This document shows, in pieces, positions 4,790-14,562 of a DNA stretch of 37,689 nt. Under the pieces are notes generated by a model. The model ran no database searches, had not been told where the DNA came from, and was given only the letters and a program-made list of their open reading frames with translations. Location: NCBI GenBank assembly GCA_003599255.1, contig QZJF01000005.1, forward strand, positions 96,985-134,673. Reading direction: 5' to 3'. The position numbers were made by a program, and so were the translations under genes. The first letter of the stretch is position 1; each line of letters starts with the position of its first letter. Source of the DNA: a candidate division WWE3 bacterium. GTDB taxonomy: Bacteria; Patescibacteriota; WWE3; UBA101185; UBA10185.

Positions 4790-4836
4790 AAAAGAGAAGA
4801 CCTCCGCTTGGGTTTTTATTCCAAATTGCGAAGGTC
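4790..4836 (-). terminator. Terminator of the 105-aa gene
   Basis: On the minus strand GACCTTCGC...TTGG pairs with CCAAGCGGAGGTC (arms within 4836-4799, a few mismatches), followed by TTCTCTTTTTT. Confidence 0.7.
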
Positions 4837-4863
4837 ATTTGATTGTCTTGTGATGCCGTGATT

Positions 4864-5181
4864 TTAGTAGTTAGCTGCCCAGTTTCCGGGGACTCCTACA
4901 AAAATCCGCGACACCTCAAACGGTATGTCACCAAAGAGCGGGGACAGGATACGGACAATCTCGTCCGAAGTGACGTTCGGGTTGTCCGTTTTCAGAATGA
5001 CTTCAACGTGACCGACATTGCACAGGTCGGTTGTACAACGTAACGTTTTGACGATGATGTCATTAGCTGCTACTCCGAGCGTGAAAAGGTCAACTGTTAA
5101 AGCATCGAGAATTTCATCGTACAATTCATTGACCTTTAAACCCAGCTCGAAGCTGGACGGATCAAACGTAAGATGTGCCAT
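4864..5181 (-). CDS. Hypothetical protein, 105 aa
   Basis: Not recognised. A small soluble protein beginning MAHLTFDPSSFELG and ending VGVPGNWAANY, predicted as alternating helix and strand (LYDEILDALTVDLF, then IIVKTLRCTTDL, HVEVILKT, SDEIVRILSPLF). It has two cysteines seven residues apart (C49, C54 region) and no known motif. It has an excellent expression signal: TTTACA-17-TATAAT promoter, AAGGAGAG ribosome site 4 nt before the ATG, and its own terminator. It is therefore very probably expressed well, alone. The length and overall pattern loosely recall a tautomerase/MIF-sized domain, but the N-terminal proline those enzymes need is absent, so I do not assign that. Confidence 0.72.
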   Translation of the reverse strand: MAHLTFDPSSFELGLKVNELYDEILDALTVDLFTLGVAANDIIVKTLRCTTDLCNVGHVEVILKTDNPNVTSDEIVRILSPLFGDIPFEVSRIFVGVPGNWAANY

Positions 5182-5224
5182 TTTCTCTCCTTATGTCTTA
5201 TTTGAGTTCTTCGAATATGCCGTA

Positions 5225-5253
5225 ATTATAACAAAAAATGGTCTTTCTGTAAA
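5225..5253 (-). promoter_or_regulatory. Strong promoter of the 105-aa gene
   Basis: On the minus strand TTTACA (5253-5248), 17-nt spacer, TATAAT (5230-5225) with an upstream TG (TGTTATAAT). It is one of the best matches to the sigma-70 consensus in the window. Confidence 0.72.
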
Positions 5254-5299
5254 TAGCTATAGGCTTTTAGTCCGTGCTTTCACTTTTTACGAAATTGCA

Positions 5300-5305
5300 T
5301 ATAAT
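5300..5305 (+). promoter_or_regulatory. -10 box of a leaderless mRNA (pcm)
   Basis: TATAAT with 8 nt before the ATG at 5314; transcription would start at or next to the start codon. Confidence 0.6.
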
Positions 5306-5313
5306 CAGGATGT

Positions 5314-5892
5314 ATGTACATTTCAAAAACTGTATCGGAGGCCATGAAACGCGTGGACCGAAAAGATTTTGTTGGTCAGGTACACGAACCGTCAGCTTAC
5401 GTTGACGCTCCATTACCAATAGGTTACGGACAGACCATCTCACAACCTACTACAGTTGGAATCATGTTAACAATGTTGGAATTGGCGCCGGGAATGAAAG
5501 TCCTTGAAGTAGGATCTGGCTCCGGGTGGGTAGTAGCTTTAATTTCTCATATTGTCGGAAACTCAGGTGAAGTTATTGGAGTGGAAAGGATTCCCAAATT
5601 AGTGGAGCTGGGAAAAAAGAATATTGAAAAATATTGTAGGGATAAAAATGTTGCAATTTACAATACTGAGAAGGAAATCGGGTATCAACCGCGCGGACCA
5701 TATGACAGGATAATCGTTTCTGCCTCTTCTACCAGTCTCCCTACAGAATTAGTTTACCAACTTAAAACGGAGGGGATCATGATTATTCCTATATTGTACT
5801 CGATCTGGAAAGTTATGAAGAAATCCGACGATCCGGAGGATATCATAAAGCAGGAATACCCTGGTTTTGTTTTTGTACCATTGGTATATTAA
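5314..5892 (+). CDS. pcm: Protein-L-isoaspartate O-methyltransferase
   Basis: A 192-aa SAM-dependent methyltransferase that starts repair of isoaspartyl residues in aged proteins, in the cytoplasm. Seen in order: the N-terminal VSEAMKRVDRKDFV, the family hallmark PLPIGYGQTISQP (about 34-46), SAM-binding motif I VLEVGSGSGW (about 63-72), the acidic residue of motif II in GVERIPKLV, and YDRIIVSAS (motif III region). It is slightly shorter than the usual 205 to 215 residues at the C-terminus. ATG 5314 is chosen because it keeps the conserved N-terminus and follows TATAAT by 8 nt; the ATG at 5344 after GGAGG would delete conserved residues. Confidence 0.93.
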   Translation: MYISKTVSEAMKRVDRKDFVGQVHEPSAYVDAPLPIGYGQTISQPTTVGIMLTMLELAPGMKVLEVGSGSGWVVALISHIVGNSGEVIGVERIPKLVELGKKNIEKYCRDKNVAIYNTEKEIGYQPRGPYDRIIVSASSTSLPTELVYQLKTEGIMIIPILYSIWKVMKKSDDPEDIIKQEYPGFVFVPLVY

Positions 5893-5908
5893 AGTTTTAG
5901 GACGGGGT

Positions 5909-5914
5909 TATAAT
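5909..5914 (+). promoter_or_regulatory. -10 box of a leaderless mRNA (90-aa gene)
   Basis: TATAAT with 7 nt before the GTG at 5922, and no ribosome-binding sequence. Confidence 0.55.
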
Positions 5915-5921
5915 AATCTAG

Positions 5922-6194
5922 GTGATTAAGAAAATATTAAAATTTTTAGGTTATACCACGCTGCTTTTTGTAATGATACTTTTCTTTTATCCCAAACCTG
6001 CAGTTTCTTTTCCCGAAGGGGGATGGATACCTGGTATACAAAGCGAAGGATATGTATGCGAATGTTTAGGGTACAGGACTCCGCTTGTTGAATATATAGA
6101 TATGGGAAAGGGCTACAAAGAAGAATTGCGTATGTTAGCAAAGTGTTACGGTATTCCTTATCACTGTGCAGATTACGATGAGAACGTCGAATAG
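5922..6194 (+). CDS. Small secreted or membrane-tethered protein, 90 aa
   Basis: Not recognised. Residues 1-27 are a basic-hydrophobic signal sequence or anchor (KKILKFLGYTTLLFVMILFFY), followed by a 60-residue exported part with four cysteines (CECLG, KCYGIPYHC), which could form disulfides or bind metal. No lipobox cysteine follows the hydrophobic stretch. It uses a GTG start right behind a TATAAT box. Its stop codon lies 2 nt before the left repeat of the mobile element, so before the insertion this gene would have run convergently into tRNA-Trp. Confidence 0.62.
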   Translation: MIKKILKFLGYTTLLFVMILFFYPKPAVSFPEGGWIPGIQSEGYVCECLGYRTPLVEYIDMGKGYKEELRMLAKCYGIPYHCADYDENVE

Positions 6195-6196
6195 TC

Positions 6197-6203
6197 TGGC
6201 AGG
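6197..6203 (+). repeat. Left attachment-site core (attL), TGGCAGG
   Basis: TGGCAGG is identical to 14489-14495, which is the 3' end of tRNA-Trp read on the other strand (CCTGCCA). It lies between the end of the 90-aa gene and the ribosome site of the first element gene. The identity stops after exactly 7 bp on both sides, as expected for a short recombinase core. Confidence 0.65.
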
Positions 6204-6255
6204 CACTAGTTGATTATGTCGGGAACTTCTATGCAAGTAGCAATCTGGAGGTGAG

Positions 6256-8310
6256 ATGCTAAAAGTACTTTATAAATATCTCCAGTTGAGGTATATATGG
6301 GTTAAGCCAACAAGGTTAACTAAAATGATAAGCACAAAGCAGTTAATTACATTAAACCTAAAATACGGTACTGAGACAAAGCCTCTAAAAGATGTTGCAT
6401 TTGCCCAGTTAGTGTCAAAAGCCTTATATTTAGCGGACTCCCCATTATCGCAAAAACAAATAGCAGTAAAAGTAAAAGAGCTTCTTGGTATTCAAAAAGT
6501 TACGAGGAGCAATATTGTCGGTGGTTTAACCTATCTTAAAGATGAGGGTAAGGTAACAGAAAAAAATGCCGGCATGTGGGAGTTGACATTAAGGGAGAGG
6601 AGCAATATTGAATCTAATCTTAATACTGACCAACACTTGATGGAGGATGTCATAGAAAGGCATTTTCCATCAGATATCGATAAAAAAATAATACGGGAGT
6701 GGTTTATAGATGCAGCGACTGATTTCTTTGGTCATTTTGGCGATGAGTTGGTAACTTCAATAACGAAGAATACTAAAACTAGACCAAAGGATCTAAAAGA
6801 GTTGCTTAAGCCTTCTATTAACAAATACTCATTACTTGCTAACTCATTAGAATTAGAAAAAGGTTTTGTTGACTTTATTTCTTGTGACGACGATAGGGAT
6901 AAACAATACTTCATGCAGCTTATTTATGCTATGTTTTCTGCAAGGTTAGTAGCAGCTGACCTTGGTTACGACCCTATAGCTGTAGATGAAGTGAAAAATG
7001 CTACACTTGTATTAGACACTAACGTTTTATTTGTTCTAGCATTAGAACGCCATAAATCAGCAAAAGCCTTAAAAGCTGTAATCAACACATTAAATAAACT
7101 TGGCTCCCGAGTCGTATATTTGGACTGTACGAGGCAAGAATACTCTAGAGCTGTATCTCATGTTAAAAAAAGTACACTTGAAATAGTTAATTATGGTTAT
7201 CCGTGGGAGGTTCTAGTTAATACGACAGACTCCTTTATGAGAACAGCTATAAAGCGTGGGTGTTCAAAAGAAGAACATTTTAATGAGTTTTTCAGAAGCA
7301 TTATGTCCGTCCCAGATACATCCGAGTTTGGTTTTTCGTTAAGTTTTGAGGCCGATGCTGTAACTGAAGAAGTATCTAAAAAAGCTGAGAATGATAAAGG
7401 TATGCAAGCAAAAATCCAAGACTTTAATACGAGATACGGTTCAAAGCTCAGGGAATATCCAATAAAGTCGCCCTCATCACTGATCCACGATGCCACACTT
7501 ATACACGTTTGCGACGCTAAGAGAAAAGAAGGCGAAAAGTACTGGGTTCTAAGTTTGGACAGGTCCTTGCAAATGTATGCAGTTAATAACACAAATCCAC
7601 ACGGTGTCTCCACGGTGATTTCACTTGATATCCTAGTTCAGGTATTAGCTTTGAATACGACGGCTGGAGCCGTTGATTCAAATGAGTTTGCTCCATTCTT
7701 AGCCATTATGATGTTGAATGAGTGTCTTCCCACGCAAGGTGCTTATAGTATGGTTGACTTAAAAACCATGGCACAGATAAGTGATGAGGTTAAAATATTA
7801 CCCCCAGCAAATATTGATAGATTAGTAGACATAGTTAAAAAAGCACGATTTGCAGGTAAACCAATAGATAGTAGCCAGTTCCTAGTTAGTTTTAATAGGG
7901 CATTACAGACTGAGAAAGAGAATGTTGGAGAAGAACTTAGAAAAGCACATGAGACAATTGAAAGTTATAAAGTTGATTTGGACAAAGAAAAAGAAAAATC
8001 CCTAAAAGTTACTTCTTATTTACAGGATGACCACAAGTCAAAGTTATCTCGTCGTTATTTAAGAGATTTAGTTATCAAAATCCTTATATCAATAATAATA
8101 GGCTTAGTGATAGGAACACCTATTCTTGTATTTTTGCCGAAAGTACTTGGTGAGGCATATGAGGCATACATTTTTCTTGTTACTACGGTTCCTGTATTCG
8201 CATCTGCTTTGTGGATTATTCCAAAATCAGTCAAGACTTACAAAGCTTCAATGGCAAGGATTGAAACAGAGGCTCAAAAGGAAGTTACGGAAAGTATATC
8301 CGGAAAGTGA
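6256..8310 (+). CDS. PIN-domain nuclease-like protein with C-terminal membrane anchor, 684 aa
   Basis: A multidomain protein not matching a named family I know. Residues about 45-110 look like a winged helix (SPLSQKQIAVKVKELLG...LTYLKDEGKV). Residues about 250-445 carry a PIN-like nuclease signature: VLDTN (D254), TRQE (E295), HDATL (D412) and LSLDRS (D435), the acidic set that binds Mg2+ for RNA or DNA cleavage. A helical linker (about 560-600, charged, coiled-coil-like) leads to two membrane helices (about 606-627 and 634-656) and a short charged tail. The nuclease would therefore hang on the inner face of the membrane. GGAGGTGAG lies directly before ATG 6256. It forms a unit with the next membrane gene (12-nt gap). 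The integrated form shows no promoter within the element. Confidence 0.75.
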   Translation: MLKVLYKYLQLRYIWVKPTRLTKMISTKQLITLNLKYGTETKPLKDVAFAQLVSKALYLADSPLSQKQIAVKVKELLGIQKVTRSNIVGGLTYLKDEGKVTEKNAGMWELTLRERSNIESNLNTDQHLMEDVIERHFPSDIDKKIIREWFIDAATDFFGHFGDELVTSITKNTKTRPKDLKELLKPSINKYSLLANSLELEKGFVDFISCDDDRDKQYFMQLIYAMFSARLVAADLGYDPIAVDEVKNATLVLDTNVLFVLALERHKSAKALKAVINTLNKLGSRVVYLDCTRQEYSRAVSHVKKSTLEIVNYGYPWEVLVNTTDSFMRTAIKRGCSKEEHFNEFFRSIMSVPDTSEFGFSLSFEADAVTEEVSKKAENDKGMQAKIQDFNTRYGSKLREYPIKSPSSLIHDATLIHVCDAKRKEGEKYWVLSLDRSLQMYAVNNTNPHGVSTVISLDILVQVLALNTTAGAVDSNEFAPFLAIMMLNECLPTQGAYSMVDLKTMAQISDEVKILPPANIDRLVDIVKKARFAGKPIDSSQFLVSFNRALQTEKENVGEELRKAHETIESYKVDLDKEKEKSLKVTSYLQDDHKSKLSRRYLRDLVIKILISIIIGLVIGTPILVFLPKVLGEAYEAYIFLVTTVPVFASALWIIPKSVKTYKASMARIETEAQKEVTESISGK

Positions 8311-8322
8311 TATCGATAAAAT

Positions 8323-8865
8323 ATGGATTTTGATAAATACATACTTTGGCAAATGGAACAGGACAGTAAGTTAAGAGACGAGGTCGGGCACACCTATTTC
8401 CAAGCACAATTGAATAACCTAAACAAGTTAAGGGATTTAGTTGTACATATGACAACAATATCCGCCGGAATAATAGGATTCACCATACCAGTGTTTGGTA
8501 GCAGTACTCTTGTTAAAACACCTGCTCTTCTGATTGGAGGATTGCTGGAGTTACTGGTTCTAACAACTTACGGTATATGGTATCTAAAGTGGATATTGGA
8601 GACCGAAAACCGTGATTTAACCCTTCAACACAGGAAATACAACGAAGTTGTAGATTCTATACGGGATTCTCACTTAAAAACCTTTGAAAATCCTACTGAA
8701 AAATCATTTCAGCATCAACAGGAAGTGGGGGAGGAAGTTATGAAGGCACTCATTGCTGACCCCGTTAAGGATAAAAGAGACTACGCTTTAGACATTCTTT
8801 TTATCGCATTTACTTTGGGCCTTCTTCTAATAATACTGTCTTTGGTTCCCGTTAAAGTTGGATAG
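8323..8865 (+). CDS. Three-helix membrane protein, partner of the PIN gene
   Basis: A 180-aa unknown membrane protein. The N-terminal 40 residues are charged and helical, then come two adjacent membrane helices (about 42-62, TTISAGIIGFTIPVFG; and about 66-88, LLIGGLLELLVLTTYGIWYL), a roughly 65-residue cytoplasmic helical region rich in charges, and a third helix (about 155-176, LDILFIAFTLGLLLIILSLV). The paired helices with a cytoplasmic helical arm resemble in layout the small membrane effectors found with defence nucleases or sensors, but no family can be named. It starts 12 nt after the PIN gene and its 3' end overlaps the converging 372-aa gene by 14 nt. Confidence 0.72.
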   Translation: MDFDKYILWQMEQDSKLRDEVGHTYFQAQLNNLNKLRDLVVHMTTISAGIIGFTIPVFGSSTLVKTPALLIGGLLELLVLTTYGIWYLKWILETENRDLTLQHRKYNEVVDSIRDSHLKTFENPTEKSFQHQQEVGEEVMKALIADPVKDKRDYALDILFIAFTLGLLLIILSLVPVKVG

Positions 8866-9970
8866 GGTATGTACCACTAATCCGGTCGTCTATACCCTCT
8901 TGTTTCAACCGGTGTGTGTCACCGTCCGACTTTATGATAACTTCAATCTTTAACTTGCCGTCCGTACTGTTATTATCCTGCTCTTGTACCTTGTATAGAA
9001 AATAGCCCTTTTCTGTAAACCCCTCGTTTTCAGGTCTCTTTTCCGAGTAGTATTTGTTAAACATACCCGAGTTTGAGCTAAACTTGTAAAACATTTTTCT
9101 TTCTACTAAATCCTGTGTTCCCACTCCTATGAAAATGTAATCTCCAACTTTAAGAGGGGTAGGAAAGTCATTATTATTGAAAGTTTCGATGCCAGAGTAT
9201 TTGTTGTACTCAGATAACTTAGTCTCATTGCCGTGGTCGTCTGATAAATAAGTGATGATTGGATAAGGTTCCGTGTCTTCATAGCTTTCGGTGACTTCTG
9301 GATTGCCTCCCCAAAAATCTTTGAACAACCCCGTAAGTGTTGGTTTGTATTTTGAGATTGCGATATTATCAAGTTCTTCATAGGGCGGATTTAGCTCTAT
9401 TTTGTTGTCAATATTGAACTGTGTGTTATTTTGGCTAAGTTGATTCCATTCATCTATGAGGGCCGGGTAGGTCTTTTGACTGTAGTTATTCCACTCTTCG
9501 TCAGACATTTCTTGCTGTTCGTATAAACGCATTTTAGCTATATAATCTTCTTCAATGTCAACTAACTTTAGTTTTTCAGATAATCTTTTGTCTAATAGTT
9601 CCGTAAGTTTTGACCATACCCTTGGGTTAGTGTTTTTAGCTTCTGTGGTAAGTTCTACGGACTTTTTAAGGTTGGTGTTGAGGTTATCTTCGAATAACCT
9701 AACTACTTCATGACCTTCCGGTGACCTTATGAGGGCGTGACTATACATCTCTTCGACAGCTAAACTCTTTGTTGTATACAACGTGGCATAATCATAGGCT
9801 TTATGCAGCAGATTTCTCGTATGCTCAATATCATTGAACACCAAGTCTTGTTTGTAGTTATCAAATGCAATGATTAAAGTAACACCAAAGCCTAATACTC
9901 CCAAAAATAGGCAAGATAGTAAAAATGGCACAACTATTTTTCTTGTTAACTTTAGTAGAGTTTGAACCAT
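8852..9970 (-). CDS. Membrane-anchored protein with large extracellular region, 372 aa
   Basis: Not recognised. One N-terminal membrane helix (about 12-37, VVPFLLSCLFLGVLGFGVTLIIAF) is followed by a roughly 330-residue domain: first helical and charged (about 40-190; EDYIAKMRLYEQQEMSDEEW), then beta-rich with a motif-like VGDYIFIGVGTQDLVE near 275 and GYFLYKVQEQD near 320. No catalytic signature is seen. The layout recalls a sensor domain without its signalling output. It overlaps the end of the upstream 137-aa gene by 19 nt, so the two are translated together. The gene is convergent with the PIN/three-helix unit. Confidence 0.7.
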   Translation of the reverse strand: MVQTLLKLTRKIVVPFLLSCLFLGVLGFGVTLIIAFDNYKQDLVFNDIEHTRNLLHKAYDYATLYTTKSLAVEEMYSHALIRSPEGHEVVRLFEDNLNTNLKKSVELTTEAKNTNPRVWSKLTELLDKRLSEKLKLVDIEEDYIAKMRLYEQQEMSDEEWNNYSQKTYPALIDEWNQLSQNNTQFNIDNKIELNPPYEELDNIAISKYKPTLTGLFKDFWGGNPEVTESYEDTEPYPIITYLSDDHGNETKLSEYNKYSGIETFNNNDFPTPLKVGDYIFIGVGTQDLVERKMFYKFSSNSGMFNKYYSEKRPENEGFTEKGYFLYKVQEQDNNSTDGKLKIEVIIKSDGDTHRLKQEGIDDRISGTYPIQL

Positions 9971-10864: not shown

Positions 10865-11797
10865 ATGATTACTGTTTCATCAGAGGATATTGAATACCTT
10901 GAGAAATCAAGGAGCGATTTCCTAGAACAACTGAAGATTAAAAATAACGACTTGTTATTTGGCGTAGGTGACTTAGTTGTAGAAGTAATAAAGCCATTAT
11001 CCAAAGGAACAGTGGTAGAAAACAAAACAGATTTCTTATTGGAAATACTCGCTTACGTAGCGGGGGTAGAGTATGTGACTTTGAATAAGCTTTCGATACT
11101 CAAGTTCGATACAGATATAAAAGCCACTAAATATAAGGCTTTTTTAGATATTAGGTCCGCTTTAGGCTACGGAACAATAAAAATCAATAAAAAACTGCTT
11201 AAAACCTTGATGTATTACAAAGACCAAGCTGAAAGTATGAACTGTCTTTCTGACTGGTGTCACGACGAGGCCAACAGGATACAAAGGAAATATCAAATCC
11301 CGATAGATGCGTTGCAGAAGTTACCGGAAGCTATTTACGAGATTATTTTGGAGTTTCTGAAAGATAAACAAACACTTACTAATGGAGAAGAGATGTATAT
11401 AGCGTTTCTAAATGATAGTATCGATATTGCTTTGACGAGGTTTTCCGAAGATTTAGGATTGATTCCAATTACACTTTACAGTTTGCGAGCGAAAACTCCC
11501 AAGGGCATTAAAAACACTTATTGTAGATACTGTCACAACTCTATAAACAGGGGAGACGCAGGAGATTATTGCACAAAAAGAGGCAATCGGGTCTGTTTTG
11601 AGCAGAATGTTGGAAGTAGAACAAAGAGGAAATCTACAAATGAGCTGGTTTTTATTAACACAAAAGATAAGGTGTGCGTCTCATGCGGAATACCACTTGA
11701 ATATAATGTTTGCCGTATAGTAGGCGATAAGCTATTGTGTAAAAAACCTCAATGTTACGAGAGATTAAAATACAAGAGCAAAAAACTAAAGAGATAA
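10865..11797 (+). CDS. Cysteine-rich (zinc-finger-like) element protein, 310 aa
   Basis: Not recognised. The first 210 residues are helical and charged, without membrane segments. The C-terminal third has two cysteine clusters: CRYCHN (C220, C223) continuing into DYCTKRGNRVCF, and CVSCG (C271, C274) continuing into LLCKKPQC (C292, C297), each suited to bind one zinc ion. The last residues are strongly basic (KYKSKKLKR), which suggests nucleic-acid binding. It is not a resolvase, primase or helicase by any motif visible. It is the first of a row of four plus-strand genes that lead to the recombinase, so a role in element maintenance is the simplest guess. Confidence 0.65.
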   Translation: MITVSSEDIEYLEKSRSDFLEQLKIKNNDLLFGVGDLVVEVIKPLSKGTVVENKTDFLLEILAYVAGVEYVTLNKLSILKFDTDIKATKYKAFLDIRSALGYGTIKINKKLLKTLMYYKDQAESMNCLSDWCHDEANRIQRKYQIPIDALQKLPEAIYEIILEFLKDKQTLTNGEEMYIAFLNDSIDIALTRFSEDLGLIPITLYSLRAKTPKGIKNTYCRYCHNSINRGDAGDYCTKRGNRVCFEQNVGSRTKRKSTNELVFINTKDKVCVSCGIPLEYNVCRIVGDKLLCKKPQCYERLKYKSKKLKR

Positions 11798-12244: not shown

Positions 12245-12887
12245 ACGAGGTTATACATCATTTTCAAACGATTCTCTACGTGAGGGTTACCTCCCAGACC
12301 ACCTTTTTAGATTTAGGGCCATTATGGAATCTCATTTAGGTTCTGCAGGTAGAGCAGTTGTAAAGTTAGAAACTATAGCATATGAGATGGGTAAAAACAG
12401 AAGAGCTGCAGAGCGTGCGAAGAAGTGGTTCCTTCGGAACTCTAATCTGCAAGCAAAAAAGCGTGGGTATTTATATGAGTTCTACACAGAACCAGACAGG
12501 AGTGTCTTATATGGTCAGACTCGTGTGTCGCATGTCGTAGTACACCCAGATACCTTTACAAAAATAACAAAAGAAAAAGACTTATATAAAAACCCTAAAG
12601 AGGTTTTTTCAAATAAGTGGGAAAAGAGTGGAAAACCTCCAGAGTTAAGTGGTGAAGAAAAGGTGTTAGTGGAAAACATAGTTAAATGGGTAATGAACCC
12701 GATGTTTAAAACGTGGTTACCAGAAAAGGTTGAGAAGTACAGAGCTATTGGTGCCATTCGCAAATATGGCTATGCGGCGATTTTAAAAATATATAAAGAG
12801 GAGGCAGAGTGGGGACTTTCTCCGCATCCCAAGCCGTTTTGGGAACGTATAAAGGAGTTGGACAATATGGCACAGACGCCAAAATAG
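12231..12887 (+). CDS. Helix-turn-helix protein, possible replication or partition initiator, 218 aa
   Basis: Residues about 20-85 look like a winged helix or HTH (FRFRAIMESHLG...VKLETIAYEMGKNRRAAERAKKWFLRNSNL), a layout seen in plasmid and phage replication or regulatory proteins that bind DNA; the rest is helical with a conserved-looking WGLSPHPKPFWERI near the end. No named family can be assigned. ATG 12231 has AGAGGTG 6 nt upstream; the GTG at 12222 is less likely. It overlaps the previous gene by 14 nt. Its own 3' end lies just before the recombinase promoter. Confidence 0.62.
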   Translation: MKGNRRGYTSFSNDSLREGYLPDHLFRFRAIMESHLGSAGRAVVKLETIAYEMGKNRRAAERAKKWFLRNSNLQAKKRGYLYEFYTEPDRSVLYGQTRVSHVVVHPDTFTKITKEKDLYKNPKEVFSNKWEKSGKPPELSGEEKVLVENIVKWVMNPMFKTWLPEKVEKYRAIGAIRKYGYAAILKIYKEEAEWGLSPHPKPFWERIKELDNMAQTPK

Positions 12888-12889
12888 TA

Positions 12890-12895
12890 TATAAT
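12890..12895 (+). promoter_or_regulatory. -10 box of the recombinase promoter
   Basis: TATAAT; the transcript would begin around 12901-12903, that is, at the first base of the folded leader described next. The -35 region is poor. Confidence 0.55.
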
Positions 12896-12900
12896 TAAAG

Positions 12901-12987
12901 TGTACCCAACTTAATAGAATCGCTATTTTAATGGCCGTCTCAGTCAACTTGAAGCGATTCTTGTTGGGTACAACTGGGGCGGCCATT
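12901..12987 (+). ncRNA. Pseudoknotted 5' leader RNA of the serine recombinase mRNA
   Basis: Three sets of long complementary segments lie within 87 nt. TGTACCCAAC (12901-12910) pairs with GTTGGGTACA (12963-12972), 10 bp. GAATCGC (12917-12923) pairs with GCGATTC (12954-12960), 7 bp, stacked inside the first. AATGGCCG (12930-12937), in the loop, pairs with CGGCCATT (12980-12987), 8 bp, beyond the outer stem, which makes an H-type pseudoknot. No T-run follows, so it is not a terminator. The fold begins at the predicted transcription start and ends 22 nt before the recombinase ATG. It could be a ligand- or protein-sensing leader, or a recombinase/accessory DNA site made of inverted repeats. No known riboswitch class was recognised. 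Confidence 0.6.
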
Positions 12988-13009
12988 TAATTGCTTTAAA
13001 AGGAAAAAT

Positions 13010-14521
13010 ATGAACGATTTAAGATATGTACAATATGCAAGAAAGTCTACGGAAGCCAAGGAAAGACAAATCCTATCTATTCCGGAGCAAGACGCTGAAA
13101 ACAAAAAATATCGGGAAAGGGAAGGTTTAAATGTAGTTAAAGAGTTTCGGGAAAGTAAATCGGCATTCAAATCCGACAATCGAATAGAGTTTGACGAAAT
13201 GTTGCGAATGATAAAAAGAGATGAAGCCGACGCTATTTTAACGTGGAAACCTGACAGGCTTTGTCGTAATCCTAAAGAGGGTGGAGAGATACTCCAGTTA
13301 CTTCAAAATGGAGTAATTAGGGAAATACGAACACCGTTAGGTGACGTTTATACTCCAGAATCTGACCAGCTTATCTTGTTAATACACTTTGGTATGGCTA
13401 ATCAATACTCAAGGAATATAAGTCAGAATGTTAAAAGGTCTATGCCTTACAAAGTTGCAAGAGGGGAGTATTACCGAGCGGCTCCTATTGGTTACGAAAA
13501 CTTTGGAGAACAAAGAGGACATCGAAATATAAGGCCTCACCATTTTGAAGCACCTCTAATCAAAGAAGTTTTTGAACTTTGTGCAAAAGGCGGCTATTCT
13601 CTTGGTTATTTAACCCGATTTTTGTCAGAAAAAGGTTTGAAGAGCAAAAAAGGTAAAGAAATAGCTAAAAGTAATATGCATAGTATTTTAACTAGCCCCA
13701 TTTATTATGGTTATTTTTACTATAAAGGTGAGCTTTATAAGGGTGACTACGTTCCTTTAATATCCAAAGATACTTACGATGCTGTTCAAGTTGCGTTAGG
13801 GGACAGAAGTGTACCCAAAGTAAACTCATGGAAGCACCCATACAATGGCTTACTGAAGTGTGCTGAGTGTGGTTGTGCTATTACAACTTCTGTAAAAAAG
13901 AAATACTATAAAGGAACTAATCGCTTTGTAACCTATGCTTATCATCATTGTACCAAGCGAAAGGGAGTATGTTCGCAAAAACCAATGTCATCTGCCAAAC
14001 TGGAAAGTATATTTATTGACGCCATCTCAAAGATAAACATAGATGCTGACGTATGGTCTTTGGGTATGGAGTTAGTAAAAGCTAAATATCATAGCCAAGT
14101 TAATCAAAATAACACTCAACTCGACCACTTTAGAATCGAATACAACCGTATTGAAGGCAGGATAAACAGATTGATTACAATGCGTGCGGATGCGGAGATA
14201 ACCGCCGAAGAGTTTAAGGCACAAAAGAACAGCATGCTTGAGGAGCGTGCGAAAGTTGAAAATAAGATTAACGACACCAAGTTTTCCTCTGATAATTGGT
14301 TAGAACGTACGGAAGAGTTCTTAAATACAGCTTTTTATGCCAAAGGAATCATTGAGGGTAAGGATATTTTGAAAAAACGAAAGTTAATTATGGACATAGG
14401 TTACGACCTCAAGCTAGATAAAGGAAATGTTGTTGTTACTTACAGAAAACCCTTTGATATACTGCTTGACCCGGCATATCGTACTAATTGGCAGGGGTGG
14501 AAGGAATCGAACCCTCGTTAA
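13010..14521 (+). CDS. Large serine recombinase (integrase) of the element
   Basis: A 503-aa site-specific recombinase that integrates and excises DNA through a covalent phosphoserine. The N-terminal resolvase domain begins YVQYARKSTE with catalytic S13, then SIPEQ and WKPDRLCRNP. The recombinase domain follows (about 150-260, PIGYENF...ILTSPIYYGYF), then a zinc ribbon (C284, C287; HHCTKRKGVC) and a coiled coil (about 365-425). The start has AAGGAAAAAT upstream. The last ten codons (from W494) lie in the attachment core and in the tRNA-Trp gene; the residues GWKESNPR are a translation of tRNA. In the circular form the frame would instead continue from 6204 to a stop at 6260-6262, giving 514 residues. 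Confidence 0.95.
   Translation: MNDLRYVQYARKSTEAKERQILSIPEQDAENKKYREREGLNVVKEFRESKSAFKSDNRIEFDEMLRMIKRDEADAILTWKPDRLCRNPKEGGEILQLLQNGVIREIRTPLGDVYTPESDQLILLIHFGMANQYSRNISQNVKRSMPYKVARGEYYRAAPIGYENFGEQRGHRNIRPHHFEAPLIKEVFELCAKGGYSLGYLTRFLSEKGLKSKKGKEIAKSNMHSILTSPIYYGYFYYKGELYKGDYVPLISKDTYDAVQVALGDRSVPKVNSWKHPYNGLLKCAECGCAITTSVKKKYYKGTNRFVTYAYHHCTKRKGVCSQKPMSSAKLESIFIDAISKINIDADVWSLGMELVKAKYHSQVNQNNTQLDHFRIEYNRIEGRINRLITMRADAEITAEEFKAQKNSMLEERAKVENKINDTKFSSDNWLERTEEFLNTAFYAKGIIEGKDILKKRKLIMDIGYDLKLDKGNVVVTYRKPFDILLDPAYRTNWQGWKESNPR
14489..14495 (+). repeat. Right attachment-site core (attR), TGGCAGG
   Basis: This is the second copy of the 7-bp repeat at 6197-6203. It is the 3' end of tRNA-Trp (last two stem bases, discriminator G and encoded CCA) and also codons 494-495 of the recombinase. 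Confidence 0.65.
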
Positions 14522-14562
14522 CGGTTTTGGAGACCGCTGTACTACCACTGTACGACACCCCT
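14489..14562 (-). tRNA. tRNA-Trp (CCA anticodon)
   Basis: The acceptor stem AGGGGTG pairs with CACCCCT. The anticodon stem GCGGT/ACCGT carries loop CTCCAAA with anticodon CCA. The T-arm is GAGGG-TTCGATT-CCTTC. The 3' end G-CCA is encoded. The 3' end is the integration site of the element, and the recombinase frame overlaps it by 33 nt. Confidence 0.95.

Follow-up and report, generated by a model that had tools for sequence, protein, structure and literature searches.

A predicted leader RNA with three covarying helices, one of them crossing, ahead of serine recombinase genes in mobile DNAs of the Candidate Phyla Radiation

We identified ahead of a large serine recombinase gene of a candidate division WWE3 bacterium a leader RNA of about 90 bases that is predicted to form the 5′ end of the recombinase message and in which a third helix crosses the first two. 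The gene lies in a stretch of 37,689 nucleotides of contig QZJF01000005.1 (hereafter the window), and in most of its relatives too the leader stands between a predicted promoter and the start codon of one gene family, on the same strand. The RNA has the appearance of a hitherto undescribed control element that belongs to mobile DNAs residing in tRNA genes. Judging from sequence comparisons, we put at about even odds (a probability near 0.5) that it acts in cis to set the amount of recombinase made.

Results

Three helices precede the recombinase gene

All three complementary pairs that a first-pass annotation of the window had described after a TATAAT box are present (Table 1), and the helices are real. 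Helix 1 has the 10 bp first assigned to it, but helix 2 has 9 bp rather than 7 and the crossing helix has 15 bp, two of them G-U, rather than 8. The suggestion that such pairing is unlikely by chance agrees with dinucleotide shuffling. Of 2000 shuffled versions of 12890-13012, 272 contained one or more perfect helices of ≥8 bp, 17 contained two and none contained three. Folding restricted to nested pairs gave −33.9 kcal/mol for 12895-13015 (shuffles, −22.2 ± 3.6; z −3.25; 1 of 200 shuffles as good), and this minimum-energy fold contains the 15-bp crossing helix without helices 1 and 2. The Resolvase, Recombinase and zinc ribbon domains of the downstream gene are those that define a large serine recombinase.

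Table 1. Positions of the leader RNA and neighboring features in the window
Feature	Position	Strand	Remarks
−35 box ATGGCA (4/6 match to TTGACA)	12867..12872	+	17-bp spacer to TATAAT, as family-wide
−10 box TATAAT	12890..12895	+	predicted transcription start ~12901-12902
Helix 1, 5′ strand (TGTACCCAAC)	12901..12910	+	pairs with 12963-12972, 10 bp
Helix 2, 5′ strand (AGAATCGCT)	12916..12924	+	pairs with 12953-12961, 9 bp
U-rich linker AUUUU	12925..12929	+	UUUUU in 51/79 aligned rows
Helix 3 (crossing), 5′ strand	12930..12944	+	pairs with 12973-12987, 15 bp including two G-U
Linker CAACTTGA	12945..12952	+	in relatives often ACAA.. or ACAGA
Helix 2, 3′ strand (AGCGATTCT)	12953..12961	+	
Helix 1, 3′ strand (GTTGGGTACA)	12963..12972	+	
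Helix 3 (crossing), 3′ strand	12973..12987	+	0 nt after helix 1 3′ strand
Shine-Dalgarno-like AAGGA	13000..13004	+	
Large serine recombinase, 503 aa	13010..14521	+	Resolvase, Recombinase, zinc-ribbon domains; phrog_95 integrase, E 5.5e-69
tRNA-Trp	14492..14562	−	CCA end 14489-14491 = right edge of inserted DNA

All three helices covary among relatives

Homologues of the serine recombinase were found in 16 of the 27 genomes of the window's family (30 listed loci), and the same three-helix layout stands upstream of several of them with quite different helix sequences. Seven seed sequences, chosen by eye after the three-helix layout was known, make up alignment A1, in which 96.0% of 201 cells pair (32-46% with slid partners) and 22 of 29 pairs change on both sides. 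In the covariance model (R1), the base pairs are those of helices 1 and 2 only, helix 3 being entered as plain sequence. The 79 matches at E ≤0.001, 77 of them distinct and with the seven model seeds included, form alignment A3. It leaves out R1 matches without a locus (G208, G136, G254, G144:C9, G327, G346, G202, G091, G219:C18), additional copies that turned up only later, and repeats (L001, L017, L020, L027, L032, L034, L035, L041, L063, L065-L072, L074-L080, L085, L086, L088, L090, L091, L104, L105, L126, L128, L130).

Among the 77 distinct copies, 97.4% of 2148 cells pair, compared with only 29-44% for slid partners, and 23 of 28 pairs change on both sides (478 such cells vs 125 ± 10 in shuffles). 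Covariation, which the first-pass annotation had proposed as a check, extends to all three helices, and no loss of a helix was seen among the aligned copies. Helix 1 is paired in 99.5% of cells, with changes on both sides in 7 of its 8 pairs, and helix 2 in 97.1%, with such changes in 6 of 6. Because A3 was fitted to helices 1 and 2, the cleanest test is helix 3, which is paired in 96.4% of cells and changes on both sides in 10 of 14 pairs. G-U cells outnumber A-C cells by 172 to 7, or by 104 to 7 without one U-G pair within helix 3 that is kept in 68 of the 77 copies; selection therefore acts on the sense RNA. Conservation outside the helices comes in short pieces (U-rich, ACA and often URAGUU).

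Searches for further pairing in the 77 copies gave small signals at most. No support emerged for a fourth helix formed by the bases 3′ of helix 1 and the tail that follows helix 3 (z 0.92; 206 of 1000 shuffles as high). Pairing of the U-rich linker with the same tail scored 5.15 (4.89 in shuffles; 2 of 1000 as high) and would only lengthen helix 3 outward. The linker after the 5′ strand of helix 3 mimics the inner end of helix 1 to a small extent: 3.22 vs 2.90 bp over all copies (0 of 2000 shuffles as high) and 3.37 vs 2.97 over 41 distinct loops (1 of 2000).

A promoter is predicted at a fixed distance from helix 1

The mean match to TATAAT over the 77 copies reaches 4.81 of 6 at a single offset, where the box ends 6 nt short of helix 1; none of the other 15 offsets listed exceeds 3.21. 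For TTGACA the mean is highest, at 2.75 of 6, 17 bp further upstream, the next value being 2.13 among the 20 offsets listed. The predicted promoter is thus sigma70-like and at a fixed distance from helix 1 and, given the usual spacing between a −10 box and the start, the transcript should begin at helix 1. The constant position of TATAAT across the family upholds the earlier placement of the fold at the predicted 5′ end of the transcript. Together with the excess of G-U cells, it also supports the view that the conserved unit is an RNA and not a DNA recombination site.

The RNA is spread across the Candidate Phyla Radiation

Of 379 genomes sampled from the phylum, 37 had a match to R1 at E ≤0.1, and in 29 of these it reached E ≤1e-5. 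Within the window's family, the motif was present in 8 of the 30 recombinase loci and, in a run over fewer genomes, in 9 of the 27 genomes. The 13 genomes checked for copy number had 1-4 copies each. An independent, degenerate pattern of helix 3 and its neighbors, which says nothing on helices 1 and 2 and catches 10 of 37 known copies, found 47 stretches among 84,980 species. All of them also match R1 at E ≤1.3e-8 (the L096 copy is cut by the locus end), and in the 48 aligned copies found in this way helix 1 is paired in 380 of 382 cells and helix 2 in 276 of 283. The titles of 44 stretches assign them to the Candidate Phyla Radiation, including WWE3, Microgenomates, Parcubacteria and Saccharibacteria lineages; two more, titled 'TM6' and 'bacterium', apparently come from G226 and G375, of the window's phylum. 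The last lies on a Woesearchaeota contig that is probably misplaced or the product of a recent transfer, because its motif is identical to that of a Gottesmanbacteria contig. The same pattern had no match in the viral contigs of IMG/VR, a weak negative given that it catches only 10 of 37 known copies; a protein scan of viral contigs likewise found no relative. Four contigs (those of L114, L124, L115 and L125) end 20-172 nt 3′ of the RNA, which suggests repeated or rearranging sequence downstream of it.

Most copies precede a serine recombinase

The proposed tie to serine recombinases is borne out by 53 of the 77 copies, which precede one; the other 24 have none in the available sequence, 10 of them with <270 nt downstream and 14 with at least 270 nt. 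The latter 14 keep their pairing (109/110, 79/82 and 179/196 cells in helices 1, 2 and 3, respectively), that of helix 3 at 91.3% vs 97.2% in the 53, and in eight of them a tRNA 3′ end follows at 64-304 nt. Two incomplete genomes (G002 and G015) contain recombinase-less copies and gave no relative of the recombinases searched. Copies without a recombinase (L067, L068, L110, L116, L093 and L113) often have one divergent ORF that starts 48-114 nt upstream of the RNA, in the manner of a single-gene cassette. No family search gave an identity for these ORFs.

The distance from helix 3 to the start codon, taken as the first in-frame ATG and so possibly wrong in some copies, falls into three ranges in the 53 recombinase copies: 4-9 nt with no Shine-Dalgarno-like motif between (21 copies), 11-44 nt (21 copies) and 64-406 nt (11 copies, among them L122, at 64 nt, whose true start is probably further on). 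The shortest distances suit the translational control by the leader suggested earlier; the 11 longest do not. A candidate reading of the class-2 downstream sequence as an rRNA leader was dropped, as no rRNA was found.

The helices are intact in the aligned copies, but some close recombinase homologues are without any such leader, as at L004, where a recombinase 59% identical and with an internal stop codon lies at a tRNA-Trp. We mapped the presence of the RNA on a recombinase tree of 72 tips, which comprised 51 of the 53 motif recombinases and 21 of the 22 motif-less loci, short pieces being left out. The label needs 9 changes (shuffled mean, 18.2), at least 8 of them by well-supported branches, so the RNA is a movable module or one that is often lost. 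Further, clearly different recombinase groups carry the same RNA, making it more likely that it is read by host machinery than by one enzyme.

Many of the elements end in tRNA genes

The last codons of the window recombinase (14488-14521) overlap the tRNA-Trp gene, which is encoded on the opposite strand. Homology with the two relatives G003 and G017 begins at 14487 and 14488, supporting a right edge at the CCA end of the tRNA, and homology to G003 resumes 7.7 kb left of the window. The left edge of the element was not found, and the window holds no second att copy. Large ORFs left of the recombinase (6256-8310, 8852-9970 and 10865-11797) had no Pfam or PHROG match at E ≤0.01. Among the 34 recombinase copies with at least 1.7 kb of downstream sequence, 24 have an opposite-strand tRNA near the recombinase end. 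The recombinase ORF enters the tRNA in 22 of these, stopping inside it in 14 and running past it in 8. The last residues, encoded by the antisense of the target tRNA (GRDSNP.., GIEP..), should change on excision.

Of the 45 copies with at least 1.6 kb downstream, 12 have the recombinase end and att side a second time, in inverted form. This inverted copy lies between the RNA and the recombinase at L102, L099, L037, L100, L073 and L118 and upstream of the RNA at L045, L048, L082, L092, L131 and L089. A tRNA was found in 10 of the 12, and in 8 of them the inverted copy extends 4-7 bases into it (not in L082 and L089). In the former group (L102, L099, L037/L066, L073, L100 and L118), an insert of a few hundred nt separates the RNA from the recombinase. 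The insert has inverted repeats at its ends (AAAGTTCTTTAAAATTTTTGCG... or similar), and the half closer to the recombinase is the inverted copy, 94-100% identical, of the 3′ end of the recombinase gene. In the five loci where the tRNA was found, this half holds 4-6 bases of the tRNA end and makes up an extra att-like site. In the latter group, inverted repeats flank the RNA and recombinase together, which might invert. At L069 (G198:C15, ~4800-7900), a module of cargo, promoter and RNA looks inverted relative to a nearby recombinase and lies between inverted repeats; a recombinase-driven promoter switch is possible at this one locus, read by eye. L073 (G188:C1:390500-404000) is a possible minimal autonomous unit: it carries two recombinases and several tRNAs, with repeat copies on either side of a ~2.3-kb stretch.

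Discussion

The fold described by the first-pass annotation, an H-type pseudoknot, stands in part. A hairpin loop pairs outside itself with covariation, through a helix absent from the fitted structure (10 of 14 pairs change on both sides), as in pseudoknots of this type. The linker lengths argue against a simple coaxial fold, and the energies of the two folds are balanced. Between the 3′ strands of helices 1 and 3, the gap is 1-2 nt in 75 of the 77 copies when core columns are counted (0 nt in the window when helix 1 is extended). Linker J2, which in a simple coaxial fold has to bridge helices 1 and 2, is no longer than 5 nt in 25 copies out of 77, for a stem of ~21 bp, and does not grow with these helices (Spearman −0.22, p 0.056). 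Because the linkers are so short, a plain coaxial H-type fold with every pair formed would be hard to build; either the stem folds back sharply or two folds alternate. Between the fold with helices 1 and 2 (fold A) and that with helix 3 (fold B), the median energy difference is −0.1 kcal/mol, the middle half of the values running from −3.2 to 2.5, and fold A is better in 39 of the 77 copies. The balance holds on average only; in individual copies, the energies of the core helices do not track each other (Spearman 0.19, p 0.09). Based on the balanced energies and short linkers, we favor, with moderate confidence, alternation over coexistence.

The reading that we prefer is a switch in the leader of the recombinase message. 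In the ON form, helices 1 and 2, which would be the first to fold on the emerging RNA, would keep the 5′ strand of helix 3 in their loop and leave the region before the start codon open. In the OFF form, helix 3 would form instead or in addition and close the last bases before the start codon, stop RNA polymerase early, or both. The balance could be shifted by a host factor common to these bacteria; since very different recombinases share this RNA, the recombinase itself is a less likely candidate. Supporting such a switch are the covariation of all three helices, the crossing one outside the model structure, the fixed promoter distance, the near-equal fold energies, the position before serine recombinases in 53 of the 77 copies and the occurrence of many in tRNA-targeting elements. 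Against it, the RNA was present at no more than 8 of the 30 recombinase loci from the family search, and neither level of control suits every copy well. Of the GC-rich hairpin and U tract that make up a transcription attenuator, helix 3 qualifies as the hairpin. The tail after it, which starts as TAAGTT in 25 copies (out of 77 minus the truncated ones), has a mean of 4.05 U in 9 nt and is a poor terminator. Start codons more than 60 nt away in 11 of the 53 copies do not fit translational control, and the 14 recombinase-less copies suit neither mechanism.

A static, compact pseudoknot in which the three helices coexist, helix 1 stacked end to end on helix 3 and the RNA 5′ end at the junction, is a possibility that we hold more doubtful. 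Its role could be that of a message-stabilizing 5′ cap, a ribosome standby platform or an antiterminator that modifies RNA polymerase. This arrangement is consistent with the near abutment of helices 1 and 3 and with a 5′ end that should fall at helix 1, and it would be workable at any start-codon distance, suiting all distance classes; the 25 copies with a J2 of 5 nt or less, on the other hand, would need helices 1 and 2 to be folded back sharply. The recombinase-less copies, with their retained pairing, the eight that face a tRNA 3′ end and those of G002 and G015, would be expected if the RNA acted beyond its own message, as a small RNA or a cofactor for the moving element. These copies may, however, be recent deletions, given the lower pairing of helix 3, and one RNA serves very different recombinases. 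In IS110-bridge-like RNA guides, a segment of the RNA matches its own target or donor site. Here, the match of the RNA to its own tRNA or 60-bp att flank was no better than to those of other elements (own/other scores of 9.44/9.26, 6.41/6.35 and 6.31/6.32 for 32 elements), and we consider a role in trans unlikely. To be taken with the same reserve is the idea that the RNA helps to mobilize cassette-like units in the Candidate Phyla Radiation, each of which would comprise a promoter and folded RNA beside an att site at a tRNA CCA end, even without a recombinase gene. Inversion of att-flanked modules by the recombinase could turn the promoter and RNA toward or away from the recombinase, so that the state of the RNA and the orientation of the DNA would together control movement.

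The proximity of att-like repeats in 12 of 45 copies could point to a feature of the DNA, such as an attachment site, an operator or folded single-stranded DNA. This is very improbable in view of the ratio of G-U to A-C cells and the fixed promoter distance; further, the att-like inverted copy is found now between the RNA and the recombinase and now upstream of the RNA, which is thus not tied to att. There is hardly any more room for a member of a known ribozyme or riboswitch class missed by Rfam models, despite the compact shape and crossing helix, as the strand order is unlike that of HDV-like and pistol ribozymes and no Rfam match rose above chance in this part of the window. The search for known classes returned nothing alike at the gathering score in the window, where it found four tRNAs only, or in relatives' loci. 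In 12800-13100 there were four chance-like matches (best E 3.3). At E ≤0.5, six relatives' loci gave only a SurA sRNA match outside the motif, with 28.9 bits of the 100-bit gathering score, and eight further loci gave only tRNAs.

A switch in the leader of the recombinase message would have partial counterparts in better known systems. In the leaders of the IS10 and IS50 transposase genes, a hairpin formed via the terminal inverted repeats hides the ribosome site in transcripts that come from outside. The RNA described here is like them in that RNA structure would limit the synthesis of a DNA-moving enzyme and unlike them in having its own promoter and three helices. Retroregulation of lambda int also controls an integrase gene at the RNA level, but sib acts from the 3′ side through RNase III, whereas the structure here is a 5′ leader. 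Attenuators and pseudoknot riboswitches such as SAM-II and preQ1 are, as here, compact 5′ leaders with alternative or crossing helices; unlike SAM-II and preQ1, the present RNA has no large conserved core as a ligand pocket. The tisB mRNA has a 5′ pseudoknot for standby translation (PMC7708055). That system is one toxin gene of E. coli, while the RNA reported here is a family with long covarying helices that stands before recombinases across the Candidate Phyla Radiation. In the part of the open-licence literature covered, with a 2017 catalogue of 224 candidate structured RNAs outside the comparison, we found no paper describing this RNA, nor any other structured RNA with a regulatory role from the Candidate Phyla Radiation.

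The RNA stands out for its unusually strong covariation, which includes a crossing helix of 14-15 bp. It would give large serine recombinases, which have practical uses, an RNA switch that can be tested, and it serves as a marker for a group of mobile elements, poorly described so far, whose ends lie in tRNA genes.
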